From Alphaproteobacteria bacterium (GTDB lineage: Bacteria > Pseudomonadota > Alphaproteobacteria > Reyranellales > Reyranellaceae): a stretch of 39,486 bases of DNA. The notes under the pieces are model-generated. The model made no database searches, was not told where the DNA came from, and was given only the letters and a program-made list of their open reading frames with translations. Location of the stretch: the NCBI GenBank assembly GCA_026126245.1, contig JAHCJT010000005.1, forward strand, positions 1 to 39,486. The letters are read 5' to 3'. Below are positions 1 through 13,909 of this stretch, piece after piece. A program made the translations under genes and the position numbers. How positions within the stretch are numbered: position 1 is the first letter of the stretch; the number at the start of each line of letters is the position of its first letter.

Positions 1-233
1 AGATGCCGCAGCGCGCGCCGATCGCTATCGAGCGCACCGAAACCAACGACAACCGCTCCTATCACATCAATTCCGACAAGATCGCGCGCGTACTGGGCTT
101 CCGTCCCAAGCGCACCGTCGAGGACGCGGTGCGCGATCTCTGCCGTGCCTTCGCTGCCGGCAAGTTGCCCGGCAGCATGGACGATCCCGGCTACATCAAC
201 GTGCGCACCATCAAGCAACGGAACGCCGCGTGA
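1..233 (+). CDS. NAD-dependent epimerase/dehydratase (SDR), C-terminal part
   Basis: Only the last 77 or so residues lie in the window; the gene starts upstream of position 1 in the frame that contains the ATG at position 3. The visible tail (a Ser-Asp-Lys-Ile segment, then Leu-Gly-Phe-Arg-Pro and a Val-Glu-Asp-Ala-Val helix) is the usual C-terminal substrate-domain ending of extended SDR sugar-nucleotide epimerases/dehydratases, where the 'LGFRP...VEDAV' stretch follows the last strand. No catalytic motif is visible, so substrate cannot be inferred. Its stop overlaps the GTG start of the next SDR gene by 4 bp, so the two are translationally coupled members of one sugar-nucleotide operon. Confidence concerns the family only. 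Confidence 0.75.
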   Translation, partial: MPQRAPIAIERTETNDNRSYHINSDKIARVLGFRPKRTVEDAVRDLCRAFAAGKLPGSMDDPGYINVRTIKQRNAA

Positions 234-1243
234 GCACGGGCAAACCGCTGGCCGTCGTCACCGGCGGCGCCGGTTTCATCGGCAGCCATGCCGTTGACCT
301 TCTGGTCGACCGTGGCTTTCGCGTGCACGTGATCGACAATCTCTACGGCGGCCGCGAACGCAACCTCGAGCGCCATGCCGGCAATGCCGACGTTGTGGTC
401 GAGATCCGCGATATCCGCGGCGTGCAGCCCGACGATGCGTTGTTCGGCGGTGCGCGCTATGTGCTGCATTTCGCCGGCATCGGCGACATCGTGCCCTCGA
501 TCGAGGCACCGGCCGACTACATGGACGTCAACGTCCAGGGCACGGTGCGCGTGCTCGAGGCGGCGCGCCACGCCGGCGTCGCCAAATTCGTCTACGCCGC
601 CTCATCCTCGTGCTACGGCCTCGCCGCCGTGCCGACGCGCGAGGATCATCCGATCGACCCCAAATACCCCTACGCGCTGTCGAAATGGATGGGCGAACAG
701 GCCGGCTTTCACTGGCACCGGGTCTATGGCTTGCCGTTCAACGCCATCCGCATTTTCAACGCCTACGGCACGCGATCGCGCACCTCGGGCGCGTACGGCG
801 CCGTATTCGGCGTGTTCCTCAGGCAGAAGCTCGCCGGCAAGCCGTTCACCGTGGTGGGCGACGGCACGCAGACGCGCGATTTCCTCTACGTGACCGACGT
901 CGCCAGCGCCTTTGTGGCGGCGGCCGAATCCGGGATTGCCGGGCGGTTCTGGAACCTCGGCGCCGGCAAACCGCAGTCGGTGAACCGGCTGGTCGAGCTG
1001 CTGGGTGGCGACACCGTCCACATCCCCAAGCGGCCGGGCGAGCCGGACTGCACGTGGGCCGACATCTCGCGCATTTCGGCGGAGCTTGGCTGGTCGCCCA
1101 AAGTCAGCTTCGAGGACGGCGTCGCGCGCATCCTCGCCGACATCGACTACTGGCGCGATGCACCGCTGTGGGATCCGGCGTCCATCGAGGGCGCCACGAA
1201 GGCATGGCACCGCTACATGGCGAAGGAAGCGAGCCGGCCATGA
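230..1243 (+). CDS. NAD-dependent sugar-nucleotide epimerase, GalE-like extended SDR
   Basis: A 337-residue extended SDR, full length for the family. The N-terminal NAD motif GGAGFIG is at residues 12-18, the catalytic Ser stretch (SSS) at 125-127 and the Tyr-x-x-x-Lys pair is Y148/K152. Later motifs (NAYG, then GDGTQTRDFLYVTD near residue 220) are typical of UDP-hexose 4-epimerases and close relatives. It probably acts in the cytoplasm on a nucleotide-activated sugar; the exact substrate cannot be read from sequence. The start is GTG at 230, overlapping the preceding stop by 4 bp. Its own stop overlaps the next ATG in an ATGA arrangement, so it is co-translated with the kinase/nucleotidyltransferase that could supply its substrate. 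Confidence 0.9.
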   Translation: MSTGKPLAVVTGGAGFIGSHAVDLLVDRGFRVHVIDNLYGGRERNLERHAGNADVVVEIRDIRGVQPDDALFGGARYVLHFAGIGDIVPSIEAPADYMDVNVQGTVRVLEAARHAGVAKFVYAASSSCYGLAAVPTREDHPIDPKYPYALSKWMGEQAGFHWHRVYGLPFNAIRIFNAYGTRSRTSGAYGAVFGVFLRQKLAGKPFTVVGDGTQTRDFLYVTDVASAFVAAAESGIAGRFWNLGAGKPQSVNRLVELLGGDTVHIPKRPGEPDCTWADISRISAELGWSPKVSFEDGVARILADIDYWRDAPLWDPASIEGATKAWHRYMAKEASRP

Positions 1244-2793
1244 AGACGATGCTGCAGGGCGCGTTTAACCGAAAGATCCACACCGCCAGCGAGCTGGCGA
1301 CGCTGCTGGGCGGCTTTCCGCGCAAGAAGCGCGTCGTGATGTGCCACGGCACGTTCGACATCGTGCATCCCGGCCATATCCGCCACCTGCTCTACGCGCG
1401 CGACAAGGGCGACGTGCTGGTGGTCAGCCTGACCTGCGACGAGCACATCCTGAAGGCCAACTATCGCCCGCACGTGCCGGAGGACCTGCGCGCCATGAAC
1501 CTGGCGGCGCTGGAGATGGTCGACCACGTCATCATCGACCGCAACGCGACGCCGATCGAGAACATCCGCCTGATCCAGCCCGACTTTTTCGTGAAGGGCT
1601 ACGAGTACGGCGCCGGCCCTCTGCCGCCCAGGACGCAGGAGGAAAAGGACGCCGTCGAGAGCTACGGCGGCGAGATCATCTTCACGCCGGGCGACGTGGT
1701 GTTCTCCTCCTCGGCGATCATCGAGAGCCGGCTGCCCAACCTCGCGGTCGAGAAGCTGGCGCTGCTGATGCGCGCCGAAAACGTCACCTTCGCCGACCTG
1801 CGCCGGACACTCAGCGACGTGGCCGGCACCAAGGTGCACGTGGTGGGCGACACGATCGTCGACACGCTCACGCACACCGAGCTGATCGGCGCCAACGCCA
1901 AGACGCCGACCTTCTCGGTGCGCTACGCCGGCAAGACCGACTTTGTCGGCGGCGCGGGCATCGTGGCCAAGCACCTGCGCGCGGCCGGCGCCAATGTCGC
2001 CTTCACCACGGTGCTGGGCGACGATTCGCTGAAGGACTTCGTGCTCGACGACCTGAAGAAGGCCGGCATCGCGGTCAGCGCCGTCATCGATCGCACGCGG
2101 CCGACCACCAACAAGAATGCCTTCGTCGCCGACGGCTATCGCCTGCTGAAGGTCGACAACGTGGACAACCGGTCGATCTCCGACCGCGTGCTGTCGCGCA
2201 TGGTCGAGTCGATCCAGCGTACGACGGTCGACGCGGCGGTGTTCAGCGATTTCCGCCACGGCATCTTCAACCGCGGCACCATCCCGACGCTGATCGAGGC
2301 CATCCCGAACGGCGTCTTTCGCGTCGCCGACAGCCAGGTCGCCAGCCGCTGGGGCAACATCCTCGACTTCAGGGATTTTGACCTTATCACGCCCAACGAG
2401 AGGGAGGCACGCTTCGCGCTCGCCGACCAGGACTCGGTGGTGCGACCGCTGGGCTCGCGACTTTACAGCGATGCCCGCTGCAAAGTGCTGATGCTCAAGA
2501 TGGGCGCGCGGGGTCTGATGACCTTCCGCGGCCACGTCGAACTGCCCAGCACGCGGGCGGAGTTTTTCGTGCTCGACAGCTTCGTCGACGCCGTGGTCGA
2601 TGCCGTCGGTACGGGCGACGCGCTGCTCGCCTACGCCACGCTGGCGCTGCAGGAGACCGGCAATTCGGTGATTGCCTCGATTCTCGGCGCCGTCGCCGCC
2701 GCCGTGGAGTGCGAATTCGACGGCAACGTACCGGTGACGCCCGAAGCGATGCTGGCCAAGCTCGGCGCGCTCGAAAGCCGCGCGGAGCTTTGA
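1240..2793 (+). CDS. bifunctional cytidylyltransferase-like / PfkB sugar kinase, HldE-like with reversed domain order
   Basis: A 517-residue two-domain enzyme. Residues about 28-165 form a cytidylyltransferase-type domain with HGTFDIVHPGH at 36-46, the nucleotide-binding HxGH signature being HPGH 43-46. Residues about 195-515 form a PfkB/ribokinase-like sugar kinase with an early GD-x-I-x-D segment, a GGAG substrate loop, and the C-terminal GTGD anion hole and catalytic Asp at 457-460. The combination matches HldE (heptose-7-phosphate kinase plus heptose-1-phosphate adenylyltransferase), but HldE has the kinase first. The open frame extends upstream to 610; the start is set at ATG 1240 because it forms an ATGA overlap with the preceding gene and everything upstream is shadow of that gene. 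Likely role: phosphorylating and nucleotidyl-activating a sugar phosphate, perhaps a heptose. The nucleotide used is unknown. Confidence 0.9.
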   Translation: MKTMLQGAFNRKIHTASELATLLGGFPRKKRVVMCHGTFDIVHPGHIRHLLYARDKGDVLVVSLTCDEHILKANYRPHVPEDLRAMNLAALEMVDHVIIDRNATPIENIRLIQPDFFVKGYEYGAGPLPPRTQEEKDAVESYGGEIIFTPGDVVFSSSAIIESRLPNLAVEKLALLMRAENVTFADLRRTLSDVAGTKVHVVGDTIVDTLTHTELIGANAKTPTFSVRYAGKTDFVGGAGIVAKHLRAAGANVAFTTVLGDDSLKDFVLDDLKKAGIAVSAVIDRTRPTTNKNAFVADGYRLLKVDNVDNRSISDRVLSRMVESIQRTTVDAAVFSDFRHGIFNRGTIPTLIEAIPNGVFRVADSQVASRWGNILDFRDFDLITPNEREARFALADQDSVVRPLGSRLYSDARCKVLMLKMGARGLMTFRGHVELPSTRAEFFVLDSFVDAVVDAVGTGDALLAYATLALQETGNSVIASILGAVAAAVECEFDGNVPVTPEAMLAKLGALESRAEL

Positions 2794-2800
2794 GGCGGCC

Positions 2801-3700
2801 ATGCGCGTCGTCATCGTCGGCATGGGCGTGCAGGGCGCCAAGCGACTCGCGGTGGCGGGCAGCGACGTGGTCGCCACGGTCGATCCGGTGCGCCCGGCCG
2901 ACTACCGCGATCTCGCCGATGTTTCGGGGCAGGCCTATGACGCGGCGCTGCTGTGCATCCCCGACGACCCCAAGCTCGCCCTGATGACGGATCTGGTGCA
3001 GCGCGGCAAGCACGTGCTGGTGGAGAAGCCGGTGCTGGGCGACGACACGGCGATCCGGCGCGTGATCGACGCGGCGGCGGCAACCGGCGCGGTCTGCTAC
3101 ACCGCCTACAACCACCGCTTCGAGCCGCATTTCGTGCGCATGAAGGCGCTGCTCGACAGCGGCGCGCTGGGCCGCATCTACACGGTGCGCCTGTTCTACG
3201 GCAACGGCACGGCGCGCCTGGTGCGCGAGTCGGCGTGGCGCGACAGCGGCAGCGGCGTGCTGGCCGATCTCGGCTCGCACGTGCTCGACACCATCCATTT
3301 TTGGCTGGGCGCTCCTGACGCACCGTTCCGGCTGACGATGAGCAACCGGTTCGAGAACCGCAGCCCCGACCACGTCGTGCTGACAAGTGCCGGCACCGTC
3401 GCCATGCAGCTCGAGATGACGATGCTCAGCTGGCGCAACCACTTCACCTGCGACATCCTTGCCGAGCACGGCAGCGCCCACATCGAGAGCCTGTGCAAAT
3501 GGGGGCCTTCGACCTTCCGTCATCGGCGACGCGTGTTGCCGGCCGGCAGGCCGCCCGAGGAGACCGAGACGCTGGTGCAGGACGATCCGACCTGGGCCGC
3601 CGAGTACGACCACTTCAAGCATTTGTGCAAGACCGGCGGGCCGGGCAACCTGGCGAATGATCTGTGGATCAACGCGACCTTGAGGACACTGGAGGCCTGA
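2801..3700 (+). CDS. Gfo/Idh/MocA-family oxidoreductase
   Basis: A 299-residue NAD(P)-dependent oxidoreductase. A Rossmann GxGxxG motif lies at residues 7-12, the family EKP motif at 75-77 within HVLVEKP, followed by YNHRF near 105 and DLGSHVLD around 157, the conserved Asp/His-containing helix of the family. At about 300 residues it is on the short side for Gfo/Idh/MocA enzymes (usually 330-390). Family members oxidise or reduce free or nucleotide-linked sugars, often producing keto-sugars. The gene begins 7 bp after the kinase/nucleotidyltransferase stop with a GAGG ribosome-binding sequence, so it belongs to the same operon. The substrate is probably the sugar made by that operon, which is inference from context. 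Confidence 0.88.
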   Translation: MRVVIVGMGVQGAKRLAVAGSDVVATVDPVRPADYRDLADVSGQAYDAALLCIPDDPKLALMTDLVQRGKHVLVEKPVLGDDTAIRRVIDAAAATGAVCYTAYNHRFEPHFVRMKALLDSGALGRIYTVRLFYGNGTARLVRESAWRDSGSGVLADLGSHVLDTIHFWLGAPDAPFRLTMSNRFENRSPDHVVLTSAGTVAMQLEMTMLSWRNHFTCDILAEHGSAHIESLCKWGPSTFRHRRRVLPAGRPPEETETLVQDDPTWAAEYDHFKHLCKTGGPGNLANDLWINATLRTLEA

Positions 3701-4402
3701 TTGCGCGACCAGACGCCCAAGACCAAAGAGGCCCAGTACGACCTCCTGTTCAAGGTCAAGAAGAAGCACGGCGTCGCGCGCTTCGGCCTGATGGCCAACG
3801 AGTCCTGGAGCCAGGATCCCAAGCGCACCCTGTTCATGCTGGCGCGCTACAAGTTCGTCGCAAAGCTGCTGGCCGGCCGTCAGAACGTGCTGGAGGTCGG
3901 CTGCGCCGACGCCTTCGGCACCCGCCTCGTCCAGCAATCCGTGGCCAAGATGACGGCGGTCGATTTCGACCCGGTCTTCATTGCCGACGTCGAGGAGCGA
4001 GCCGATCCGCACTGGCCGATGACCGCCTTCGTGCACGACATGCTCGACGGTCCCGTGCCGGGCGGGTTCGATGCCGCCTACGCACTGGACGTGCTGGAGC
4101 ACATCAGGCCCGACGACGAAGCGACGTTCCTCAAAAACCTCTGCGTGTCCCTGACGCCGACCGGCATCGCCATCCTGGGCATGCCATCGCTCGAGTCGCA
4201 GGCCCATGCCTCGCCGCAGAGCAAGGCCGGCCACGTCAACTGCAAGACCGGCGATGAGTTCAAGCGGGTGATGGAGCAGTACTTCCACACTGTCTTCGTC
4301 TTTTCGATGAACGACGAGGTCGTGCACACCGGCTACTACCCGATGGCGCACTACCTGCTCGCCGTCTGCTCGCACCTCAAGGCGGGCGCCGGCGCTCCAT
4401 AA
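3701..4402 (+). CDS. class I SAM-dependent methyltransferase
   Basis: A 233-residue Rossmann-fold methyltransferase. The SAM-binding motif I (LEVGCADAFGT) is at residues 64-74, an acidic motif II (AVDFD) is at 86-90, and a post-motif 'AYALDVLEHI' stretch follows near 130. The start is taken as TTG at 3701, which abuts the preceding TGA with no spacer; the next in-frame ATG (Met31) would leave the motifs intact but drop a charged N-terminal helix, so the start is uncertain. Last gene of the rightward sugar operon, suggesting methylation of a sugar or glycan, for example an O-methyl cap. Its 3' end overlaps the convergent gene on the other strand by 26 bp. Confidence 0.85.
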   Translation: MRDQTPKTKEAQYDLLFKVKKKHGVARFGLMANESWSQDPKRTLFMLARYKFVAKLLAGRQNVLEVGCADAFGTRLVQQSVAKMTAVDFDPVFIADVEERADPHWPMTAFVHDMLDGPVPGGFDAAYALDVLEHIRPDDEATFLKNLCVSLTPTGIAILGMPSLESQAHASPQSKAGHVNCKTGDEFKRVMEQYFHTVFVFSMNDEVVHTGYYPMAHYLLAVCSHLKAGAGAP

Positions 4403-5456
4403 CATTCCGGGCAAGCCTGCCGACCGTGCGGCGCAGCGTCCGGCGCACGCCGCTCATCCACGTGTCGGCACCGGGTGGCGTCTGGATGGCCGAGGCCAGC
4501 CAGGCGGTCGCCGCCTCCACCCGTCGCCATTCGTCGTCGAGATCGCCGGTATGCAGCTTGACGGCCTTCGAGAAGAAATGGCGATGCAGCGCATTGGCCA
4601 TTCCGCCATGAGCTGTGTGCCGCAAGGTCTCGATGTCGAACGGCTCGTGGCGGGACTCCGAATACCAGGCGTTCGCCGGCGTGAGCGAACACAGGAAAAT
4701 GTCGTCGGAATCGGTCTCGACGTGGATCTCCGCCCAGTTGCCCAGAGCGCGGCCGAGCAGGGCGCCGTCAATCGACTGTTCCTTCAGCGCCTCGACGCTC
4801 TCGATCCGCGAAAAGTCGATCATCAGCGGATGAAGGTGGAGGCACCGCATGAGGATACCCTTGCCGCCGAGGTCCCAGCAGCACACCGCCGGAAACGTCG
4901 AGAAATCCCGCGAAGTCACGAAGTAGCGGCGCATCTGCGGATGCAAGTGCTCCAGCGCCAGCGCGACCATCTCCCGGCAGCCGATCGGCGCGTCGATGCG
5001 ATGTGCCAGCGCCGGCAGCGCGGCTTCCTGAAGCAGTCGAATACCGGTCGACATGACCGCGATCTTTCCCTGATCGGCGTGCTCGGCGAGCCTACGCAGG
5101 CTGCCGTCGGCGAACAGCATGTCGGGCGCGGCGATGATGGCATGCGCGCCCTCGCGCTTACACGCGAGAGCGCCAAGGTAGTGGCCCTCGCTCATCGCCA
5201 GGTAGACATTCGACGCGCTGTCCGGATCGAAGTGGACGAACTCGATCGGCACAGTTTCGGCCAGACGGCGCACGGAGATAGCCTGGCGGATGGTGTCTTC
5301 CTCGGCGGCGCGGGTGAAGAACACCACCTTGCAGTCGCCGCGCGCCGCCAGCGCCGGCAGGTTGCCGTCGTAGAGCAACGTGGGGATGGCCAACCGGACC
5401 ATGACGTCGATGTAGCGATCCCCCCAGACCGCCATGAAGACGTGGAACCTGGCCAT
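4377..5456 (-). CDS. unrecognised transferase-like protein in glycan operon
   Basis: A 359-residue protein that I cannot place in a named family. No signal peptide or membrane span is visible. The N-terminus (FHVFMAVWGDRYIDVM, then alternating hydrophobic strands such as CKVVFF and HAIIAAPDMLFADGS near 125-140) resembles the nucleotide-sugar binding half of GT-A glycosyltransferases, with acidic clusters (APDM, DSDD near 268) that could be metal ligands. The C-terminal 40 residues are Arg-rich and basic. It is the last of seven tightly packed leftward genes, 9 bp after the E1 beta gene, so it probably acts on the product of that operon. Glycosyltransferase is a guess from fold pattern and context only. 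Its 3' end overlaps the convergent methyltransferase gene by 26 bp. Confidence 0.78.
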   Translation of the reverse strand: MARFHVFMAVWGDRYIDVMVRLAIPTLLYDGNLPALAARGDCKVVFFTRAAEEDTIRQAISVRRLAETVPIEFVHFDPDSASNVYLAMSEGHYLGALACKREGAHAIIAAPDMLFADGSLRRLAEHADQGKIAVMSTGIRLLQEAALPALAHRIDAPIGCREMVALALEHLHPQMRRYFVTSRDFSTFPAVCCWDLGGKGILMRCLHLHPLMIDFSRIESVEALKEQSIDGALLGRALGNWAEIHVETDSDDIFLCSLTPANAWYSESRHEPFDIETLRHTAHGGMANALHRHFFSKAVKLHTGDLDDEWRRVEAATAWLASAIQTPPGADTWMSGVRRTLRRTVGRLARNVMERRRPP

Positions 5457-5465
5457 CGGCGTCCG

Positions 5466-6524
5466 TCAGTACGGCCCCTTGAACGAGGGATCCGGCACAT
5501 CCTTCCAGCGGCGCGGATCGCTGTCGTCGGGCGGCAGTTCGCGGTCCGAGCCCAACGTCGTGAGCGCCGCCACGGCGATGTCGCGCGCCAGCGGATAGTA
5601 GAGATCGGCCAACGCCGGCGTGGTCGGCGTCGGAATGTGCGGCAGACCGACCCGTCGCGGTGGTGCCCTGAGCGCGCCGAAGGCATGCTGCGCCACCAGC
5701 GCCAGCGCCTCGGCGCCGACCCCGTAGCTCTCCTGGCCGGTATCGGAAACGACGAAGTGGCCCGTGCGCCCGACTGACTCGGTCAGGGTCGCCACATCGA
5801 GCGGCGCCACGGCACGCAAGTCGATCACCTCCGCCTCGATGCCGATCCGGCTCAGCATGTCGGCCGCCTTCAGGCTCTCCAGGCACATGTAGGACGTTGC
5901 GGCCAGCGTCACGTCGCGGCCGCGACGCACGATCGTCGCCTGATCGAGCGGCACCTCGTAGGGCGCCTCGGGCACCGGGCCGGCGATGTTGTAGAGCCAG
6001 CGATGCTCCATGACGATCACCGGCGCATCGTCGCGCACGGCCGCGATCAGCATGCCCTTGGCGTCGTGTGGCGTGGTCGGCATGACGACCTTCAGGCCGG
6101 GCACGTGGGCAAACCAGGCCTGCAGCGACTGCGAGTGTTGCGGCCCCTGCCCCCAGCCGCGGCCGATGATCATGCGCACGGTCAGGGGTGCCTTCAGCTT
6201 GCCGCCGTACATGTAGTGCCACTTGGCCGCCTGGTTCACCAGCGGCTCCATGGATAGGACGGCGAAATCGACACGCATGTGCACGACGATCGGACGCCTG
6301 CCCATCAGGGCCGTACCCAGCGCAACGCCGGTCATCGCGTTCTCCGACGACGGCGTGTCGAAGACACGGTGCTTGCCGAATTCTTCCTGCAGGCCCTTGG
6401 TCGTGCCGAAGACGCCGGTCGGCCCGGGAACGCCCAGGCCAATCACCAAGGTGCTCGGGTCGGTGGCGAGGAGCTGGGCCTGCGCCTCGCGTAGCGCTTC
6501 GAAATAGCGAAGCTGACGCGTCAT
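5466..6524 (-). CDS. thiamine-diphosphate-dependent E1 beta subunit (transketolase-like)
   Basis: A 352-residue beta subunit of the 2-oxoacid dehydrogenase E1 / transketolase-like type. The family's thiamine-contacting Glu is E61 in DTPSSENAMTG (55-65), preceded by TGVFG and the 'GLQEEFG' helix; the conserved GPQHSQS His segment and the 'PGLKVVMPTTP' strand of the pyrimidine domain follow, and the C-terminal domain has the DLRAVAPLD motif. The start is ATG at 6524, which overlaps the alpha-subunit stop in an ATGA arrangement; longer versions of the frame are shadows of the alpha gene. With the alpha subunit it should form an alpha2beta2 enzyme that decarboxylates a 2-oxoacid or transfers a short-chain unit. 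No E2 (lipoyl) or E3 gene is nearby, so a carboligase or decarboxylase role in sugar modification is plausible. Confidence 0.9.
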   Translation of the reverse strand: MTRQLRYFEALREAQAQLLATDPSTLVIGLGVPGPTGVFGTTKGLQEEFGKHRVFDTPSSENAMTGVALGTALMGRRPIVVHMRVDFAVLSMEPLVNQAAKWHYMYGGKLKAPLTVRMIIGRGWGQGPQHSQSLQAWFAHVPGLKVVMPTTPHDAKGMLIAAVRDDAPVIVMEHRWLYNIAGPVPEAPYEVPLDQATIVRRGRDVTLAATSYMCLESLKAADMLSRIGIEAEVIDLRAVAPLDVATLTESVGRTGHFVVSDTGQESYGVGAEALALVAQHAFGALRAPPRRVGLPHIPTPTTPALADLYYPLARDIAVAALTTLGSDRELPPDDSDPRRWKDVPDPSFKGPY

Positions 6525-7501
6525 CGGCGATCCGCCGGGTCGGGATAGACGAAGCGCGCCAGCGCCTCGGGCGCCGGAAACGGACTGGACTTGGCGAACG
6601 CAACCGCCGCGTCGAGCTCGCCGGCGATCGTCTTTGCCATCGCCGTCTCGGCAGGCGCGCTCAGCATGCCGGTTGCCGTCAGCCGCTGGCGATAGGTGTT
6701 CACGGGATCGCGCGCCTGCCACGCCGCGAATTCCTCGGCGCTGCGATAGTTCAGCTCGAGATCGCCGTTCGGACCGCAATGCTCGCGCCAGCGATAGGTC
6801 GCGAACTCGATCAGGGTCGGACCGTCGCCCTTGCGCGCCCGCGCCACCGCCTCGGCGGCGAGGTCGTAGACGACATCGACGTCGTTGCCATCTCCGTAGA
6901 CGCCTTGCAGCCCATGCGCCGGCGCAAGCGCATGGATGGGTCGGTCCGGCTGGCGGACGTCGAGCGCGGAATGAACGGAGTAGAGGTTGTTCTCGCACAC
7001 GAACACGACGGGCAGCTTGTGCGTGCCGGCGAAGTTCAGTGCCTCGTGGAACGCGCCCTCTTCCGTGGCACCGTCGCCGAAATAGACGACGACCACGCGG
7101 TCCAGGCCATCGAGCTGCGCCGCCCAGGCCGCGCCCACGCCGACCGAGATCGTGCTGGCCAGAATCGGTGCCGAGCCCATGAAACCGCACTCGAGGTCGA
7201 TGAGGTGCTGGCTGCCACCCTTGCCCCCGGCACAGCCGGTTGCGCGGCCGTAGAGCTCAGCCAGCATGGCTCTCAGGTCGCCGCCCTTGGCCAGGTAGTG
7301 GCCGTGGCTCCGGTGACCGCTGAAGACGAGATCGTCGCGGCGCAGATGGGCCGACACGCCGACCGGCGGCGCTTCCTGGCCGATGCACAGGTGGGTCGGG
7401 CAGCGCATTTGCTGCTCGGCATAGAGATCGCCGATGCGCTCCTCCACCAGCCGGATGCGCAGCATCTGACGGTAGAGATCGAGGCGGCTGTTGTCCGGCA
7501 T
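6521..7501 (-). CDS. thiamine-diphosphate-dependent E1 alpha subunit
   Basis: A 326-residue alpha subunit of the pyruvate/acetoin dehydrogenase E1 family. The family GKGGSxH motif is at 93-99 (GKGGSQH), and the thiamine-diphosphate/Mg motif runs from GDG (142-144) to NN (171-172) with the expected spacing. The loop that in PDH E1 alpha reads YR(Y/F)xGHSxSD here reads YRWREHCGPNGD around H241, so the regulatory/phosphorylation loop is diverged while the His is kept. Start ATG 7501 overlaps the previous gene's stop by 1 bp (TGATG); the frame could extend upstream but only through the neighbouring gene. Paired with the beta gene by a 4-bp overlap. The substrate is unknown; the sugar-operon setting suggests that it does not serve central metabolism. 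Confidence 0.9.
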   Translation of the reverse strand: MPDNSRLDLYRQMLRIRLVEERIGDLYAEQQMRCPTHLCIGQEAPPVGVSAHLRRDDLVFSGHRSHGHYLAKGGDLRAMLAELYGRATGCAGGKGGSQHLIDLECGFMGSAPILASTISVGVGAAWAAQLDGLDRVVVVYFGDGATEEGAFHEALNFAGTHKLPVVFVCENNLYSVHSALDVRQPDRPIHALAPAHGLQGVYGDGNDVDVVYDLAAEAVARARKGDGPTLIEFATYRWREHCGPNGDLELNYRSAEEFAAWQARDPVNTYRQRLTATGMLSAPAETAMAKTIAGELDAAVAFAKSSPFPAPEALARFVYPDPADRR

Positions 7502-8493
7502 CAGGCCCGCATCACGTAGTCGGTCGGCCAGTCCTTGAGCTGGTCGAAATACCTGCGGCCCCAGGCGACCATCTCGTCCAGGCCCTCGTCCCAACCGATC
7601 CGCGGCTGCCAACCGATATCGTTCCGGATGCGCGAACTGTCCAGCCAGTAGCGGCTGTCTTGGCCGAGGCGGTCCTCGGTGACCTCGCACAACTGCTCGA
7701 ACGGCACGCCGAGCGCCCTGGCGGTGCGCTCGACAACCTCGCGGATCGAGGTCGGATCCTTGGGCCCGGCATTGTAGATCGTGCCCAGGGGCGCTTTCTC
7801 GGCGATGAGCTGGATCGCGCGGCCCAGATCGCGGGCATGGATGTAGGACTTCTCGGCCTTGCCGCCGCCGTGCAGTGGCAGCTTCTCGCCCTTGAGGCCC
7901 ATGACGACCGCCTTCGGGATCACCCGGTGCAGCAGCTGGCCCGGACAGTAGGCGTTCGACGGCCGGATGATGTTCATCGGGAATTTCAGGAAGCGATGGA
8001 CCGACACGAGATACATGTCGAACGCCACTTTCGACGCGGCATATGGCGAGGACGGCTTGATCGGCGTGTCCTCGTGCGACGGCGCATCCACGGAACCGTA
8101 CATCTCCGACGTGCCGATATGGATGAAGCGCTCAAGGTAGTCGCGCTTCATAAGTTCCTCGCAAAGGCGCGCCAGCGCCATGCTGTTGGTCTCGAAAAAG
8201 CGCCAGGAGTTCTTCCAGCTCACCGCGCCTTCGCCCTGCGCGGCAAAGTTGACGATGATCTCCGGCTTCTCCGTGTCGAGCAGCTCGAGCAGCAGGTCGA
8301 GTTCATACGTGACATGGCGGGCGTGATAGTCGAAGCCTTTGCGCCGCTCGATGCCCAGCGAGAAGGCACCGGGACGCAGCGGATTGCGGCCGACGCCGAT
8401 CACCTTCGTGGGATCGGCATTGTCGAGCAGCCAGAAGGCGGTGTGGATGCCGAACGAGCCGCCCCCGCCCAGGATGACCCACTTCTTGCTCAA
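7501..8493 (-). CDS. NAD-dependent epimerase/dehydratase, GDP-mannose 4,6-dehydratase-like SDR
   Basis: A 330-residue extended SDR. The nucleotide-binding stretch is LGGGGSFG (8-15), the catalytic triad region reads TSEMYG (128-133) and YAASK gives Y151/K155. The TSEMYG form, with Ser-Glu after the Thr, resembles the GDP-mannose and dTDP-glucose 4,6-dehydratase group, so a 4-keto-6-deoxy product is likely but unproven. The start is chosen at TTG 8493 because AGGAGG sits 8 bp upstream on this strand and the Rossmann strand then begins at residue 5. An upstream TTG at 8523 would add 10 residues with no ribosome-binding site. It lies in the middle of the leftward operon, coupled to the E1 alpha gene by a 1-bp overlap. 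Confidence 0.88.
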   Translation of the reverse strand: MSKKWVILGGGGSFGIHTAFWLLDNADPTKVIGVGRNPLRPGAFSLGIERRKGFDYHARHVTYELDLLLELLDTEKPEIIVNFAAQGEGAVSWKNSWRFFETNSMALARLCEELMKRDYLERFIHIGTSEMYGSVDAPSHEDTPIKPSSPYAASKVAFDMYLVSVHRFLKFPMNIIRPSNAYCPGQLLHRVIPKAVVMGLKGEKLPLHGGGKAEKSYIHARDLGRAIQLIAEKAPLGTIYNAGPKDPTSIREVVERTARALGVPFEQLCEVTEDRLGQDSRYWLDSSRIRNDIGWQPRIGWDEGLDEMVAWGRRYFDQLKDWPTDYVMRA

Positions 8494-8526
8494 GCCTGCA
8501 TCCTCCTGCTCCGTCTCGACCAATTT

Positions 8527-9186
8527 CTAGGCCGCGATGATCGTCCATGTCCAATCGCCGCGAAATCCCGCCTCGGCAAAGACCGCCTCCCAGCCCTCGG
8601 GATAGTCGTGGAATCGTGCCGTCAGCACCCAATCCACAAAGACAGCCCGTTCCTGCGGCGTGCGGTAGCTGTCCACGCGGATATAGCTGCGCCCGCGTCC
8701 GACGCGCTCGAATTCGCGCAACGCGCGCACGACCCCGGCGCGCTCAAGGTTGTGGATGACATCCAGCCCAATCACGAGATCGAAGCTGGCATCGGCGAAG
8801 GGCAACGCATCACACGAGCCGCACACCAGCCGGCCGCGGGCCTCCGGTTCGGCATGGCTCAGTGCGTAGTGCGAGATATCGAGGCCCCAGACATCGAGGC
8901 CCCGGCAGGCGCCCAGCAGGTCCTTGACGAGAAAGCCCTTGGCACAGCCGACGTCGAGCACCCGCTGCCCGGGGGTCAGCCCGTAGTGGGCCACGATATC
9001 GTGGGCCACCGGCACCCACCGGCCGTCGTAGCGATAGCCGCCATAGCCGTAGTCGCGCGAACCATCGAAGTAGTCGAAGCTGAACTGCATCGCGCGCGCG
9101 ATCAGCTCGGGCGACTTCGCAGTCGCCCGTGCGGCGATGTTGCGGCGGCTCTTCGGCAGGCGGCCCAGCAGGTCGAGGTATGCCAT
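8527..9186 (-). CDS. class I SAM-dependent methyltransferase
   Basis: A 219-residue methyltransferase. Motif I (VLDVGCAKGF) lies near residues 76-85, the acidic second motif in VWGLDIS near 99-105, and a DALPFADASFDLVIG stretch follows, as in small-molecule class I enzymes (Methyltransf_11/25 group). No signal peptide is present. An odd glycine/tyrosine-rich segment (YGYGGYRYDG, about 46-55) precedes the Rossmann core and may form part of the substrate pocket. The gene starts 3 bp after the stop of the upstream SDR gene and lies just before the dehydratase-like SDR gene, so a sugar or sugar-nucleotide is the likely acceptor. It is not closely similar to the other methyltransferase in this locus, so two distinct methylations are possible. 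Confidence 0.87.
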   Translation of the reverse strand: MAYLDLLGRLPKSRRNIAARATAKSPELIARAMQFSFDYFDGSRDYGYGGYRYDGRWVPVAHDIVAHYGLTPGQRVLDVGCAKGFLVKDLLGACRGLDVWGLDISHYALSHAEPEARGRLVCGSCDALPFADASFDLVIGLDVIHNLERAGVVRALREFERVGRGRSYIRVDSYRTPQERAVFVDWVLTARFHDYPEGWEAVFAEAGFRGDWTWTIIAA

Positions 9187-9189: not shown

Positions 9190-10083
9190 CTAGCGCTCGG
9201 CGATCTCACGGTGGACGCGCGCGATGCCATCCGGCAGCTGCGTCATCTTCAGGTCCGGAAATGCCAAGCCGATTGCCGAGATGTCGAACGGGCGATAGCC
9301 ACCGTGCGGCATCGGCCCGCTCCGCTTGGTACCGATGACCTTCACCTTGTTGCCGTACAGCTCCGCAATCTGCTCGGCGATCGCGCGGAACGAATGCACC
9401 GCGCCCGACGCGACGTTCAGGGCTCCGACGGAACGTTGCTCGACGATGCGGGCGATGATCTCCGCGACGTCGTCGATGAAGACGTGATCGCGCCGCTCTT
9501 CGCCCTCGCCGAACAGGATGATGTCCTTGCTCGCCGCGGCAAGGCGCCGGTATTGATTGGGCCCGTAGCCGCCATGCGGATCTGCTGCGCCATAGATCAT
9601 GGTCGGCCGCACAAAGGTGAGGCCGGCCGTCGGCACCACGTCGCGCAGCATCAGTTCGCGGGTCAGCTGCATGATGCCATAGAGGTTGTCCGGACCTTTG
9701 AGCGAGCTCTCTGTCAGCGGCACGCTGCTGTCGGCATAGACCGCGTCCGAGCTGACGTAGACCACGTGGTCGACCGGTCGCGCGCGCAGGGCATTGGTGA
9801 TCCGCGCCATCATCGCCAGATTGTGCACGACCATGTCCGGAGTCCGGCACGGGACCTTCACTGCCGAGATGATGACAGTGTCCTTGGGCCGGAGCTGGCC
9901 GACGAGTCGGTCGGTCGCGGTATCGGCGCCAAGGTCGATCTGCGCGCGGGCGAGGCCCACGACGTCGCCACCCCTCGCGGCAATGCGGTTCGCCACAGCA
10001 TGGCCGACAAAGCCGGCAGCGCCAACGACCACGGTGCGCGGCGGCAACAGACCCGGCGAACGCGTATGCGTAAGAATGGTCAC
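9190..10083 (-). CDS. NAD-dependent epimerase-like SDR with Tyr-x-x-x-Gln in place of Tyr-x-x-x-Lys
   Basis: A 297-residue SDR. The NAD motif GAAGFVG is at residues 21-27, the strand ending YVSSD at 109-113, and the expected catalytic Tyr is Y135 in NLYGIMQLTRE. The position four residues on, normally the catalytic Lys, is Gln139; the codon on the minus strand is CAG, so this is not a reading error. Downstream motifs (VRPTMIYG, then RRDHVFIDDVAE) are standard for the family, so the fold and cofactor site look intact. Loss of the Lys suggests altered chemistry, a non-catalytic role, or a different proton relay. The stop overlaps nothing downstream (3-bp gap), and the start overlaps the dehydrogenase-like gene upstream by 4 bp. 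Confidence 0.88.
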   Translation of the reverse strand: MTILTHTRSPGLLPPRTVVVGAAGFVGHAVANRIAARGGDVVGLARAQIDLGADTATDRLVGQLRPKDTVIISAVKVPCRTPDMVVHNLAMMARITNALRARPVDHVVYVSSDAVYADSSVPLTESSLKGPDNLYGIMQLTRELMLRDVVPTAGLTFVRPTMIYGAADPHGGYGPNQYRRLAAASKDIILFGEGEERRDHVFIDDVAEIIARIVEQRSVGALNVASGAVHSFRAIAEQIAELYGNKVKVIGTKRSGPMPHGGYRPFDISAIGLAFPDLKMTQLPDGIARVHREIAER

Positions 10084-11351
10084 ACCTGTGTGGGTAGCAG
10101 GGGTGGTCGGCCGATCGAATAGAGAGCAAGGCCGGCGGCCGCAGCCTTCTGCGTATCGAGCAGGCGATAGGGATCGATCACCACGCGGCCGCGCATCCGG
10201 GCCGCGAGCGCCGCCGGATCAATCTGCCGATAGGCCGGCCACGGGGTCATCAGCAGGACGGCATCCGCCGCATCGGCCACGCCCTCGGCCATGGCGACAC
10301 CGACCGTCTGCGGCACGACGGAGGCCGGCACGACCGGGTCGTGAACCTTGAGCTCGATGCCGGGCAGTCGACCGATCAGGGCGACGGACGCGCTGTTCTT
10401 TGTCGAGTGCGTGTCCTGCTTGTAGGCCAGCCCCATGATGCCCAGCCGCGGGCGTTCGACCACGTCGAGGACGGTCCGCTTCAGCGTGCGGTACGCCCAG
10501 TCCCGCATATACCGGCTGTTCTCGACATAGGCTTCGATGACGCCGGTGGCGCTGCCTTCCCGGGCTCCGAGTCCGATCACGGTGGCGAGGTCGCGCTCCA
10601 GATTGCCACCGGCGATGCCCAGACCCGGCGTCAGATAGGCGGACGGCCCGATGCGGGCGTCAAGTCGCAGCGCCGGCGCGATCTCCGACCAGTCGGCCGA
10701 GATCCGTTCGCAGAGTTCGGCCAGCGTGTTTGTCGTCGAGACGCTGGCGACCAGGAAGCAGTTGATGGCGACCTTGGCGAGTTCGGCACTCTCGTATCGC
10801 ATCGGCAAGATGGGGCAGCCGAAACTCTCCAGAAAGGCGCGGTAGGTCGTCGGCAGGGGCAGCGATGGATCCGCGCAGCCGACGATAAAGCGCTCCGGCG
10901 CGGTGGCACGCTCCAGCGCACGCCCGAAGATCAGCGTCTCGACCTGATAGTAGAGTCGCGCCGGATCGAAGCGGATGCTGCGGGTAAAGCCCGGCGGGAC
11001 CTGACTCAGCATCACCAGTGAGGTCTGTGGCCGGAGCGTCGGCATGACCCGCGCCAACACCTGGTGGATGGGCGTCAGATCAGCGCGTCCCGTGTCGTCC
11101 GTCGGCACATCCGGCGCGATATAGACGACATCGCAACCGGCAAGCGCATCCACGTCCGACGTGAAGGTCAGCCTTGAGCGATGCTCGGCGAAGGCCCCGT
11201 CAAGGCCAGGTTCCACCACCGGCAGGACGCCTCGCCCGATGCGCTGCACCAACGCGGCGTCATCCGACCAGCCCACGATCGCGTGCCCCTGGATCGCTGC
11301 GCCAACCGCAGAGCAAATGCCGAGATGGGTGAGGCCGATGAATCCGATCAT
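10080..11351 (-). CDS. UDP-glucose/GDP-mannose dehydrogenase-family protein lacking the catalytic Cys
   Basis: A 423-residue protein with the three-domain layout of nucleotide-sugar dehydrogenases: an N-terminal NAD strand (MIGFIGLTHLG, 1-11), a central helix with the conserved SAELAK...N pattern (188-208), and a C-terminal substrate domain starting at GLAYKQDT. The active-site motif, usually PGxGFGGxCxxKD, reads PGLGIAGGNLERD at 242-254, so the nucleophilic Cys is Asn250 and the Lys is Arg253. Without the thiol the normal two-step oxidation to a uronic acid cannot proceed by the standard mechanism; it might stop at the aldehyde, do other redox chemistry, or be structural. The start is ATG 11351, where homology begins; a longer frame to 11420 runs through the divergent promoter region. 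First gene of the leftward operon. Confidence 0.88.
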   Translation of the reverse strand: MIGFIGLTHLGICSAVGAAIQGHAIVGWSDDAALVQRIGRGVLPVVEPGLDGAFAEHRSRLTFTSDVDALAGCDVVYIAPDVPTDDTGRADLTPIHQVLARVMPTLRPQTSLVMLSQVPPGFTRSIRFDPARLYYQVETLIFGRALERATAPERFIVGCADPSLPLPTTYRAFLESFGCPILPMRYESAELAKVAINCFLVASVSTTNTLAELCERISADWSEIAPALRLDARIGPSAYLTPGLGIAGGNLERDLATVIGLGAREGSATGVIEAYVENSRYMRDWAYRTLKRTVLDVVERPRLGIMGLAYKQDTHSTKNSASVALIGRLPGIELKVHDPVVPASVVPQTVGVAMAEGVADAADAVLLMTPWPAYRQIDPAALAARMRGRVVIDPYRLLDTQKAAAAGLALYSIGRPPLLPTQV

Positions 11352-11393
11352 GAACGAAGCCAGATGCGGGCGAGGGCTTCTCAATCGAGCGGC

Positions 11394-11432
11394 TGACGTG
11401 ATAGCTACCGCTGGTCGCACTCTATCGCGTCA
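11394..11432. promoter_or_regulatory. inverted repeat between divergent glycan genes
   Basis: Two 11-bp arms, TGACGTGATAG at 11394-11404 and CTATCGCGTCA at 11422-11432, are inverted with a single mismatch and a 17-bp spacer. They lie in the 113-bp gap between the divergent starts at 11351 and 11465. The placement suits an operator shared by both promoters, or a hairpin in the leader of either transcript. No matching regulator gene is present in the window, so function is inferred from symmetry and position only. Confidence 0.4.
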
Positions 11433-11464
11433 CTTCGTCGGAAGCCAGCGGACAGGAGCGGAAT

Positions 11465-12607
11465 GTGCTTTCGCGGATCGTCTACCCTGTACTGGCACGT
11501 TTGCTCTGGCTACTTCGCGTCCGCTTTCTCTGCCTCACCAGCCCCAATCGGATCGGCCACCTGGCAATCGAACCCGACTGTCACGCCAAGGATCGCCTGC
11601 TGGCGGGCAGATGGGAACTGACCGTCCTGCTGCTGCGGCCTGCCGACGTGGCAAATCCCCGCTTGCTCGAGCATTGGCGCAAGTATTTCATCGTTGTCTC
11701 CAGGCCGACTCCTTTCCGTCTGCTGACTCCGTTCCTGTCGTTTGATTTTCTGAGGCTGTATCCCCTTCGCTGTGTCGTCGCCATCGACGATACCGCAACG
11801 GCATACGATACCTACCGGCGCTGGGGCGAGCGGCCGCCGCTGTTGGCCTTGACTGCGACCGAACGCGCTGCCGGGCGCGCGACCCTGGAGAAGATGGGCG
11901 TGCCGGCCGGCGCTTGGTTCGTCTGCATCCACTCGCGCGAGGGCGGCTACTCGCCCGCGGACGAGCATCTGCACTCCTACCGGAACAGCTCCATCGACGA
12001 CTATATCCCTGCGATGCACGCGATCGTCGCCGCCGGCGGCTGGTGCATCCGCATGGGTGACTCGACGATGCGTCCGTTGCGGCCAGTCCCCGGCGTCATC
12101 GACTACGCGTTGTCGCCGTACAAGGATGCGGCGATGGACGTCTACCTGTGTGCGGAATGCCGCTTCGTGCTCGGCAACTCTTCAGGCCTCTATATGCTGG
12201 CCGCGGTTTTCGGAAAGCCGAGCGCCCTGGCCAACCAGGCGCCGCTGTCAGCGGTCTATGGCGTGGGCATCCGCGACATCGCGATCCCAAAGCGCCTGCG
12301 GCGCGATGGCCAGCTGCTGCCACTGGGGCCTCTCTTGCGCTCACCCATAGCCAACTACCGTTTCACCGAGCTCTACGAGAAAGACCGCCTCGAACCGGTC
12401 AACAACACGCCGGCGGAAATCCTTGCCATGACCGAGGAGATGCTCGAGAGAGTTTCGGGCAGCCCGACCTACACTGCCGACGACGAGGCACGACAGGAAA
12501 AGTTTCGCGCCCTCTTTGCCAGGGGGCACTACAGCTTCGGCGCCGCCTCGCGCATCGGCCGGGACTTTCTGCGGAATTTGGCAGAGTCCGATTTCAGACC
12601 AGCTTGA
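11465..12607 (+). CDS. TIGR04372-type glycosyltransferase
   Basis: A 380-residue protein whose pattern matches my recollection of the TIGR04372 family of putative glycosyltransferases: HSREGGY at 156-162, YRNSSIDDY at 172-180, GGWCIRMGD at 191-199, and a later NSSG (about 239) in the nucleotide-binding half. The N-terminal 25 residues are hydrophobic with Arg interspersed, possibly a membrane-associating helix. The start is GTG at 11465 with AGGAG 6 bp upstream; an ATG two bases earlier is out of frame. It is transcribed divergently from the leftward operon and probably adds a sugar to a surface glycan. Donor and acceptor are unknown. Its last 14 bp overlap the convergent transaldolase gene. 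Confidence 0.85.
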   Translation: MLSRIVYPVLARLLWLLRVRFLCLTSPNRIGHLAIEPDCHAKDRLLAGRWELTVLLLRPADVANPRLLEHWRKYFIVVSRPTPFRLLTPFLSFDFLRLYPLRCVVAIDDTATAYDTYRRWGERPPLLALTATERAAGRATLEKMGVPAGAWFVCIHSREGGYSPADEHLHSYRNSSIDDYIPAMHAIVAAGGWCIRMGDSTMRPLRPVPGVIDYALSPYKDAAMDVYLCAECRFVLGNSSGLYMLAAVFGKPSALANQAPLSAVYGVGIRDIAIPKRLRRDGQLLPLGPLLRSPIANYRFTELYEKDRLEPVNNTPAEILAMTEEMLERVSGSPTYTADDEARQEKFRALFARGHYSFGAASRIGRDFLRNLAESDFRPA

Positions 12608-13307
12608 AGCCGGCCGCTTTGGCGTCGTTGTGGAACATCTTGACGGTCTCCAGCGAGAACTCGTCGAGATCCTTCCCAATGGTCGGCAGCTTGGCGAGGA
12701 TATCGGGGGTGATGGTGATGATGTCGCAACCGCTCTCGTCCGCCTGCAGGACGTTGAGCACCTCGCGCGGACTGGCCCAGAGGAGCTCCACTTTCGGTCG
12801 GCCGGCCAGCGCTGCCTTCGCCTGACGCATCACGGGGATCGGATCCACGCCCGTATCGGCAATCCGGCCGGCGAAGACCGACACGATCGCGCGGCTGTTC
12901 GGGCTGACGGCGTCGGCAACGGCCATGACCTGTGCGAGCGTCATGACCGCCGTGATGTTGAGCGCAAAGCCTTCTGCCGACAGTTTGCGGATCAGGGGGA
13001 CGGTCGATTCCGCCCTGGTGTTGCTGATCGGGATCTTGACGAATGTGTCACCGCCCCAGCTGGCGATGGCCCGCGCTTCAGCTTCCATGGCGTCAAAGTC
13101 GTCGGAGAAGACCTCGAAGGAAATCGGCAGGTCGGGGATCGCCGCGATGGCCGCCTTGGCGAACGCCGCATAGTCGGTGACGCCCGAACTGCGCATGAGC
13201 GTCGGATTGGTCGTGAAGCCCTTGACCGTGCCGGCCCGGCGCGCGGCCTTCATCGCCTCGATGTCGGCGCCATCCATGAACAGCTTGATCTTGAGCGGTT
13301 TGATCAT
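12594..13307 (-). CDS. transaldolase (short TalC/FSA-type)
   Basis: A 237-residue class I aldolase barrel. TTNPT is at 32-36 and the Schiff-base Lys is K91 in FVKIPISN. In fructose-6-phosphate aldolase two active-site positions are Gln59 and Tyr131, while transaldolases have Glu and Phe there. This protein has E65 (ISFEV) and F145 (VSVFAGR), so transaldolase activity is favoured: transfer of dihydroxyacetone from fructose 6-phosphate to erythrose 4-phosphate, giving sedoheptulose 7-phosphate. The start is ATG 13307, overlapping the isomerase stop in ATGA; a GTG 15 bp further out is less likely. Coupling to a GmhA-like isomerase suggests that it feeds heptose synthesis rather than only the pentose phosphate pathway. 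Confidence 0.9.
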   Translation of the reverse strand: MIKPLKIKLFMDGADIEAMKAARRAGTVKGFTTNPTLMRSSGVTDYAAFAKAAIAAIPDLPISFEVFSDDFDAMEAEARAIASWGGDTFVKIPISNTRAESTVPLIRKLSAEGFALNITAVMTLAQVMAVADAVSPNSRAIVSVFAGRIADTGVDPIPVMRQAKAALAGRPKVELLWASPREVLNVLQADESGCDIITITPDILAKLPTIGKDLDEFSLETVKMFHNDAKAAGFKLV

Positions 13308-13909
13308 TCGATCGATTCCCACTTCATCTCATTGGCCTTCAAGGCGGGGTGAGTCACGATCAGGTGCCAGACGACGGCATGAAACGCTTCGGTATGCGGC
13401 GTAATGGTGGCCGGATTGACGACCGGGACGACGACGCACGCGTCGGCGACCTGCGCCGTGTAGCCGCCGTCACGCCCCACGACGCCAATGATCTTTGCGC
13501 CCACGTCCCTCGCCAGCTTGAGTGCATGGACGAGATTCGGGCTGACGTTCTTTTCCAGGTTGCCGCCGCCAACCGAGAACACAAAGACCGCATCCTTGGA
13601 GTTCAGCCGGCTGCCCTTCAGCCAATCCGCGAAGGCGACGTCCCATCCGTCGTCGTTGATTCGGGCGGTGAGCTCCGAGACGTTGTCAGTTGGCGTATAG
13701 GCTTCGACGTTGGCGATCTTGCGAAAGTCATTGACCGCGTGCGAGCAATTGGCCGCGCTGCCGCCGACCCCCAGAAAGAACAGGCGACCGCGGTCAGCAC
13801 GCACGCCGGCAATCACCCGCACGACATCATCGATCACGGCGCCGTCCAATCGCTCGATGATTTCGACAGCTTCGCGCAAATAGAGGGTCGTGTAGCTGGT
13901 CGCGTTCAC
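13304..13909 (-). CDS. SIS-domain sugar-phosphate isomerase, GmhA-like
   Basis: A 201-residue SIS-domain protein, the usual size of sedoheptulose-7-phosphate isomerase (GmhA, about 190-200). The phosphate-binding motif GVGGSAANCSH is at 47-57, followed by DNVSELTARINDDGWD (75-90), which parallels the GmhA segment ending in an Asn-Asp-x-Gly motif. A second SIS strand (VFSVGGGN, then GAKIIGVVGRDGG) is also present. The start is GTG 13909 with AAGGTGG just upstream; the frame continues to 14008 but the extra residues have no family match. It overlaps the transaldolase gene by 4 bp. Likely reaction: sedoheptulose 7-phosphate to an aldoheptose 7-phosphate, although other ketose-aldose phosphate pairs are possible. 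Confidence 0.88.
   Translation of the reverse strand: MNATSYTTLYLREAVEIIERLDGAVIDDVVRVIAGVRADRGRLFFLGVGGSAANCSHAVNDFRKIANVEAYTPTDNVSELTARINDDGWDVAFADWLKGSRLNSKDAVFVFSVGGGNLEKNVSPNLVHALKLARDVGAKIIGVVGRDGGYTAQVADACVVVPVVNPATITPHTEAFHAVVWHLIVTHPALKANEMKWESIE

Follow-up and report, generated by a model that had tools for sequence, protein, structure and literature searches.

A conserved gene cluster from an alphaproteobacterium that may make a branched higher-carbon sugar for the cell surface

We analyzed a stretch of 39,486 nucleotides (the window) from an alphaproteobacterium of the family Reyranellaceae (contig JAHCJT010000005.1 of assembly GCA_026126245.1). The first ~13.9 kb of the window hold a cluster of 14 complete genes and the end of one more, and this gene set is conserved and, apparently, undescribed. 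Most likely, it encodes the synthesis of an eight-to-ten-carbon sugar for the bacterial surface. Specifically, we propose one pathway to a nucleotide-activated octose that would be oxidized, branched with a two-carbon unit to give ten carbons, methylated, and placed in a surface glycan. We give this proposal a probability of roughly 58%. An earlier note on this DNA had suggested a single pathway for a higher-carbon sugar, with methylation of the sugar and with carbon transfer by a thiamine diphosphate (ThDP)-dependent enzyme, and the comparisons below argue for all three ideas. Genes were called as open reading frames, and families were assigned from matches to Pfam and NCBIfam profiles (Table 1). 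The window spans an entire contig (C442) of a draft genome (G000), whose 4.98 Mb are divided among 496 contigs with 87.7% completeness, and the cluster is therefore truncated at base 1.

In the scheme proposed here, all substrates and products, the number of carbons, the sequence of steps, and the destination in a glycan are inferred. A transaldolase would move a three-carbon unit onto ribose 5-phosphate to give octulose 8-phosphate, which an isomerase with a SIS domain would convert to octose 8-phosphate. A fusion of a nucleotidyltransferase and a PfkB-type kinase (the NT-kinase) would act twice. Its kinase domain would phosphorylate C1, and after a HAD phosphatase, encoded past the contig end, removed the 8-phosphate, its N-terminal domain would form the nucleoside diphosphate sugar (NDP-octose). 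Two short-chain dehydrogenases/reductases (SDRz and SDR1), a Gfo/Idh/MocA oxidoreductase (Gfo), and a relative of UDP-glucose dehydrogenase that lacks the catalytic cysteine (UGD-like) would epimerize, oxidize, and dehydrate the NDP-octose. SDR2 would supply or shape a ketone, and a ThDP-dependent pair that resembles the alpha and beta subunits of the E1 component of 2-oxoacid dehydrogenases would decarboxylate pyruvate and add the acetyl unit to the ketone, which would yield a tertiary alcohol and ten carbons. SDR3 and two methyltransferases (MT1 and MT2) would finish the sugar, and a TIGR04372-family protein and a GT-A-like protein would transfer it. The NT-kinase, transaldolase, E1 alpha, SDR1, SDR2, and Gfo each carry the catalytic motifs that we sought. 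What our comparisons show directly is which genes are present, that they are conserved as a unit, the state of their active sites, and the clade of E1.

The genes of the cluster behave as one conserved pathway. To identify relatives, we used an alignment of three NT-kinase fusions to scan GTDB genomes. We kept the best 80 of 573 relatives, and in these the close clade extends beyond Alphaproteobacteria to an Acidobacteriota, an Omnitrophota, a Bipolaricaulota, and a Thermoplasmata genome, with much of the gene set recurring across them. (The Thermoplasmata locus, which is archaeal, has a reduced set, with no SDR1, SIS, or ThDP pair found in our bait search.) In another genome of the same family (G004), the cluster is near-completely syntenic with the window, at 69-93% identity, except for the GT-A-like gene, which is missing at the corresponding position (an alignment gap). 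At locus L014, a single run holds genes for the isomerase, transaldolase, SDRz, SDR1, NT-kinase, Gfo, UGD-like protein, SDR3, MT2, SDR2, and E1 alpha and beta, along with two aminotransferases. SDR1 is 67-74% identical in L014-L021, and SDRz is beside the NT-kinase in 36 of 40 close loci.

We also counted neighbors within 12 kb of the NT-kinase, restricting the count to loci flanked by at least 8 kb on each side. (These counts leave out L021, since it and L224 are one gene, as well as the short loci L001, L004-L013, L094-L113, L119-L168, L189-L194, and L241-L248.) The 26 close loci have SDRz, Gfo, and the UGD-like gene in every case, SDR1 in 25, MT2 in 23, transaldolase in 21, a ThDP pair in 20 (5 with an E1 pair and 15 with a split transketolase), SDR3 in 16, SIS in 15 (one of which, L179, is of the canonical GmhA type), a phosphatase-like gene in 15, and an aminotransferase-like gene in 14. 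At 42 distant loci, one of which (L231) is a canonical HldE, we found a ThDP pair 24 times, SIS 20 times, SDRz 19 times, and transaldolase never. As controls, we took 29 fusion-free stretches, none longer than 20 kb, from seven carrier genomes; they contained no ThDP pair, transaldolase, SDRz, or Gfo, while SIS was found once and UGD twice. The earlier note had also allowed that its four blocks of genes might serve different glycans, and had suggested checking whether the blocks are scattered in related genomes. The blocks are kept together and their homologs are not scattered, so the idea of separate glycans loses ground and the single pathway is not refuted.

A phylogenetic tree of the fusion, with 48 rows chosen from roughly 120 loci, has four labeled groups, each set apart from all other rows by a branch with support of at least 100/99. 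The window lies in the clade with the octose-type gene set (17 rows, support 100/100). The other groups are a Bradyrhizobium 11-gene type (6 rows), a planctomycete type (7 rows), and a broad module type (18 rows). Near the planctomycete fusions, which have the reversed domain order as well, no bait neighbors were found within 12 kb, and some of those contigs are short (L025-L038, L040-L041, L043-L045, L047, L049-L051, and L064). In the family of G082 (391 genomes), 40 genomes have an NT-kinase match at E = 1e-60, of which 22 are close (60-68% identity); one of the 22 is a split gene, at 50 and 63% identity. At L188 (genome G316, ~8.9-9.5 kb), the NT-kinase is split into two overlapping matches with 2 TGA codons, within a well-filled cluster, and this could be a pseudogene or an assembly error.

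Might the cluster make two sugars? The isomerase, transaldolase, NT-kinase, Gfo, and UGD-like protein would then make a higher-carbon sugar, and SDR2, the E1 pair, and MT2 would make a C2-branched hexose of the avilamycin type. The two parts lie on opposite strands in the window, the first part occurs with no ThDP pair within 12 kb in L020, L022, L170, L172, and L178, and the E1 pair and the NT-kinase are on different contigs in G082 and G078. However, L014 has everything in one run, most of the close loci have a ThDP pair, and the cluster genes include no separate hexose nucleotidyltransferase or gene for activating glucose 1-phosphate. We consider two sugars to be improbable.

Other observations weigh against a single C2-branched octose. 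First, the close loci include many related genomes, so the neighbor counts are not independent. Second, a ThDP pair was not seen within 12 kb in 6 of the 26 close loci, nor was transaldolase in 5 or SIS in 11, and searches of G081, G083, and G085 for E1 alpha gave no match. Given the loci without a ThDP pair and these three genomes, C2 addition by the E1 pair is not obligatory. Third, in 15 of the 20 ThDP loci the pair is a split transketolase, and the unit that it transfers may be a ketol instead of an acetyl. Fourth, transaldolases of the TIGR02134 family are also found outside of such clusters. Fifth, the window's cluster has no aminotransferase (LmbS), GHMP kinase, or nucleotidyltransferase of the LmbO type, all of which are discussed below. 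Finally, two further E1s of this genome (on C482 and C464) also lack an E2 gene on their contigs, so the lack of E2 beside the window's E1 pair proves little by itself.

The E1 pair nevertheless seems to belong to the cluster. E1 alpha falls in a clade made up solely of rows that we labeled as cluster E1s (13 rows from 12 distinct genes, support 100/99), with members from Alphaproteobacteria, Microcoleus, a Chlamydiota, and a Methylococcaceae genome, while three other E1s of the same genome fall outside it. In this tree, the cluster label includes L119 and L120/L223, which are on a different contig from the fusion, and L122, whose link to the fusion contig is not established; L120 and L223 were both kept although they are one gene. 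A filter on score and length removed L006 and L009 (own-genome E1s) and L052, and five duplicate loci were dropped. The pair could instead be an ordinary 2-oxoacid dehydrogenase that is located here by chance: its subunits are good matches to pyruvate dehydrogenase models (294.6 and 284.5 bits, short of the respective cut-offs, 393.85 and 321), and the E1s on C482 and C464 are alike in lacking E2. But C442 has no E2 gene, E2 is present on the contigs of three other E1s of this genome, the E1 genes are embedded in the cluster, with E1 alpha overlapping SDR2, and the same neighbors recur across phyla. An ordinary pyruvate dehydrogenase was judged unlikely, given the cluster-only clade and the lack of E2 on the contig, and we would be quite surprised by a chance location.

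Pairs of this kind have precedents among antibiotic sugars. As described in passages of the review PMC12247030, alphaKADH2 pairs take two carbons from pyruvate and attach them to ketosugars, and transketolases are branching enzymes as well; parts of PMC4425429 and PMC4753412 also describe C2 branching by E1-type enzymes. Like AviB1/AviB2, the window's proteins are an alpha/beta pair similar to pyruvate dehydrogenase E1, with a ThDP motif, in a sugar cluster, here with no E2 on the contig. In contrast, the known enzymes act on smaller sugars, and the acceptor here would probably be an octose; we compared the two by description. The pair fits a pyruvate-dependent C2-branching enzyme of the antibiotic-sugar kind. 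SDR2 could supply the ketone, as it keeps a T(S/P)E.YG motif, which we take to be the motif of 4,6-dehydratases. (Its score against the model for dTDP-glucose 4,6-dehydratase is 172.4 bits, which does not reach the cut-off of 365.1.)

We prefer an octose over a plain heptose because the UGD-like protein without the cysteine, Gfo, an SDR, transaldolase, the SIS isomerase, and a phosphatase (in the sister genome G004) are the classes of the C8 pathway for lincosamides. The earlier note had read the isomerase as GmhA-like and the NT-kinase as HldE-like. Those readings do not fit well: against a gmhA cut-off of 209.45, the isomerase reaches just 49.5 bits, and against an HldE cut-off of 521, the NT-kinase reaches 133.8 bits, with its domains in the opposite order to HldE. 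The isomerase also has a different active-site signature. In isomerases of the close clade, Asp replaces the Glu of the canonical AQH..(A/G)E in 23 of 24 rows (L021 and L224 are one gene), and the only exception, L179, is the canonical GmhA-type protein; the second site has Gln in 21 rows and His in three, including the window and G004. These sites presumably correspond to Glu65 and His180 of GmhA. Among the distant module isomerases, Asp is also general at the first site and the second is mostly His, while the isomerase of a cluster that we call ORS278-like (see below), along with its relatives in that alignment, has Asp and Gln, as in most of the window's clade. For a heptose by way of GmhA and HldE, the case is weak.

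A heptose backbone could also arise in a single pathway if all that the transaldolase does is replenish sedoheptulose 7-phosphate; the end result would then be an oxidized, C2-branched heptose with nine carbons. Consistent with this, the isomerase and the NT-kinase are closer to GmhA and HldE domains than to other named families, and the ORS278-like cluster has both proteins but no transaldolase. GDP-heptose pathways use the same enzyme classes as this cluster. The heptose pathway of GmhA, HldE, GmhB, and HldD likewise has these classes for isomerization, C1 phosphorylation, and activation, but the window's fusion is reversed, its scores are below the cut-offs, its isomerase signature differs, and the scans gave no HldD match above the cut-off. 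A C7 product is possible. Since the scores are so far below the cut-offs and the lincosamide C8 classes are present, we think a heptose backbone is unlikely, albeit less so than two sugars.

In the UGD-like protein, the catalytic Cys of GG.CFP(K/R)D is absent from all 38 rows from clusters (36 have Asn and 2 have His), Lawsonia has Thr, and the 3 ordinary UGDs in the same alignment all retain it. Because the Cys is missing, the UGD-like protein should not be a normal four-electron dehydrogenase, and we rejected UDP-glucuronate synthesis as its role. It fits a ketone-forming or dehydrating role, like the one reported for LmbL. (PDB sequence searches with the UGD-like protein, Gfo, and E1 alpha returned general family members only.) As for the phosphatase, the earlier note was right that the window has no GmhB, and the cut at the contig end would account for this. 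It had supposed that the step is encoded elsewhere or else bypassed. The former fits G004, where a HAD phosphatase adjoins the cluster (G004:C10:133808-134221; TIGR01656, 118 bits, cut-off 84.15), and a bypass is not needed. In G004, the phosphatase is the gene immediately upstream of SDRz: its frame (21686-22231 of the joined stretch) shares the strand of SDRz, abuts it, and has a slight overlap with its start. The equivalent place in the window lies beyond base 1, which would explain the absence of the phosphatase. G000 also has a weaker match on C56 (70 bits, below the cut-off).

A close described parallel is the octose of lincosamide antibiotics. As set out in portions of PMC4351081 and PMC12945683, the lincosamide proteins R, N, K, P, and O are the transaldolase, isomerase, phosphatase, kinase, and guanylyltransferase of the octose pathway, and M, L, Z, and S are its epimerase, dehydrogenase, oxidoreductase, and aminotransferase; LmbR forms the octulose from ribose 5-phosphate (PMC5854111, in part). 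By enzyme class, rather than by comparison to Lmb sequences, the window shares transaldolase, SIS, kinase, nucleotidyltransferase, SDR, UGD-like, and Gfo/Idh/MocA proteins with that pathway. We assume here that LmbL is UGD-like and that LmbZ is Gfo-like. The sister genome G004 has the phosphatase as well, and some relatives have aminotransferases, as counted above. In lincosamide synthesis, the kinase (P) and guanylyltransferase (O) are separate, whereas the window has a single reversed-HldE fusion. The window also adds the E1 pair, extra SDRs, and methyltransferases, and it has surface-type glycosyltransferases in place of antibiotic genes.

Plasmid 3 of Lawsonia and a megaplasmid of Rhizobium CB3060 carry an eight-gene octose set that is like the lincosamide set (L118, 12.7-21.1 kb, and L249, 4.8-12.7 kb): SIS, phosphatase, transaldolase, UGD-like, SDR, Gfo, GHMP kinase, and nucleotidyltransferase. 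Their isomerases are 63 and 70% identical to the window's, and their transaldolases are 60 and 56% identical. They differ in that a GHMP kinase and a separate nucleotidyltransferase replace the fusion, and no ThDP pair was among the bait matches there. These clusters form a bridge between the window's set and the lincosamide-type set.

The cluster also shares part of its core with the probable genes for bradyrhizose, which is found in bacteria that nodulate plants and has no worked-out biosynthesis. Passages of PMC4743980 describe this sugar as fused to inositol, with ten carbons in all. In 2016 the genes for it were still called unknown; an 11-gene cluster was later assigned to it, although those passages do not give the steps. 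They also report (Busset et al.) that the 11-gene locus is needed for the bradyrhizose O-antigen of strain ORS285, although polar effects are possible, that it is syntenic in six photosynthetic strains, and that rfaD, rfaE, and rfaF are nearby. In G451, which carries reaction-center genes, we found a run of 11 consecutive genes (G451:C1 5,374,471-5,384,568, or L227 9472-19569) that we call the ORS278-like cluster: an NT-kinase, an NTP-transferase, SDRz, SIS, a 4,6-dehydratase-like SDR, the two genes of a split transketolase, a Zn-dehydrogenase, a 204-aa protein, an APH-type kinase, and a methyltransferase. About 28 kb past the end of the run is a 427-aa Wzy_C protein that is flanked by HldE, an SDR, and a heptosyltransferase. 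It lies ~35 kb from the dehydratase gene, and the corresponding distance in another strain is given as 40 kb in PMC4743980. We take this run to be the published bradyrhizose cluster, which we matched by description, not by gene list. TIGR04372-like proteins are also encoded near the run (L227:666-2576 and L230:6209-8683).

The window has counterparts of five of these 11 genes, four of them complete and the fifth being the tail of SDRz. The NT-kinase is 32% identical, SIS 29%, the 4,6-dehydratase-like SDR 37% (to SDR2), and the methyltransferase 43% (to MT2); SDRz is 42% identical to the copy in G004 and 46% identical to a homolog from Azospirillum. The ORS278-like cluster differs in that a split transketolase replaces the E1 pair, it has no transaldolase, UGD-like, or Gfo gene, and it has an additional nucleotidyltransferase, the Zn-dehydrogenase, the APH-type kinase, and the 204-aa protein. 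We considered whether window-like clusters are themselves the bradyrhizose cluster and rejected this. Within the genus of G289 (265 genomes), 10 genomes have a close NT-kinase (at E = 1e-100) and 27 have photosynthetic reaction-center genes, yet just 2 (G289 and G462) have both. The cluster whose NT-kinase is 32-33% identical is the better match.

More broadly, the module of NT-kinase, SIS, SDRz, and ThDP pair could be a general route to C10 surface sugars, in which a ThDP pair puts two carbons on a ketone of a C8 or C7 sugar. E1 pairs would add an acetyl unit and split transketolases a ketol. Bradyrhizose would be one product, whose bicycle could arise from the C2 branch and an internal aldol closure, and the window's product would be a methylated relative that has not yet been seen. 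This generalization is tentative, and we would bet slightly against it. The core of NT-kinase, SIS, SDR, and ThDP enzymes that the run in G451 has in common with a wide family of clusters gives a concrete and assayable order of steps for bradyrhizose synthesis, and it points to new ThDP enzymes that accept ketones. One branch of this family carries the lincosamide-like octose set, which suggests that octose chemistry, as described for an antibiotic, is widespread in bacterial surface glycans and perhaps also in those of an archaeon. Each of the enzyme classes is known, but we found no description of the combination, its breadth, or the tie to bradyrhizose in the literature that we searched; nor did these papers, which were mostly open-access, describe a pathway of the window's type, which is weak evidence of absence.

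Table 1. Genes of the cluster, by position in the window
Feature	Positions	Strand	Basis
SDRz, C-terminal tail (76 residues)	3..233	+	Near-identical to the end of the G004 SDRz that adjoins SDR1
SDR1, epimerase-type SDR	230..1243	+	Pfam Epimerase, E = 2e-53
NT-kinase fusion (reversed HldE): cytidylyltransferase-like domain, then PfkB kinase	1240..2793	+	HPGH and AVGTGD motifs intact
Gfo/Idh/MocA oxidoreductase	2801..3700	+	Pfam; EKP and D.G.H motifs
MT1, class I methyltransferase	3701..4402	+	Pfam
Probable GT-A-fold glycosyltransferase	4377..5456	-	Predicted structure
E1 beta-like ThDP subunit	5466..6524	-	Transket_pyr and Transketolase_C
E1 alpha-like ThDP subunit	6521..7501	-	E1_dh, E = 9.8e-67; GDG..NN ThDP motif intact
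SDR2, 4,6-dehydratase-like SDR	7501..8523	-	TSEMYG and YAASK motifs
MT2, class I methyltransferase	8527..9186	-	Pfam; 43% homolog in the ORS278-like cluster
SDR3, degenerate active site (YGIMQ, no Lys)	9190..10083	-	Pfam and motif alignment
UGD-like dehydrogenase without catalytic Cys (GGNLERDL)	10080..11420	-	Pfam and alignment; likely start ATG 11351
TIGR04372-family glycosyltransferase	11465..12607	+	202 bits, cut-off 45
Transaldolase, TIGR02134	12594..13307 (from ATG)	-	337.9 bits, cut-off 281.95; VKIP lysine
SIS-domain ketose/aldose phosphate isomerase, not canonical GmhA	13304..13909	-	Family profiles; HAVNDF signature

All of the genes that the earlier note named were found as open frames with family matches, and its count of four SDRs holds if the tail of SDRz is included; the UGD-like and GT-A-like genes go beyond its list. 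Twelve of the 14 complete genes are also in a GC3-filtered list of open reading frames, the exceptions being E1 beta and the isomerase. The transaldolase and isomerase genes are side by side, with a 4-nt overlap. SDR3 and its relatives lack the lysine of YxxxK and have (Y/H)-x-x-x-(H/Q) in 26 of 28 aligned rows (the remaining 2 rows are one different SDR). SDR3 may not be a redox SDR.

Beyond the cluster, we scanned 14.7-34.4 kb of the window. This region encodes TRAP and TctC binding proteins, a luciferase-like oxidoreductase, phosphoenolpyruvate carboxylase, an aminotransferase, CinA, GST, and a BMP-type ABC transporter, with no visible link to the cluster. The binding proteins near the cluster are a TRAP DctP and two TctC proteins (14697-17417 and 20875-21924), and no membrane subunits were among the genes scanned.

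For the GT-A-like protein, scans against Pfam and NCBIfam gave no match. Folding of the single sequence was poor (pLDDT, the predicted local distance difference test, of 40). An AlphaFold2 model from a 6-sequence alignment had a moderate pLDDT of 62, and its top Foldseek match was SpsA (E = 1.5e-6).

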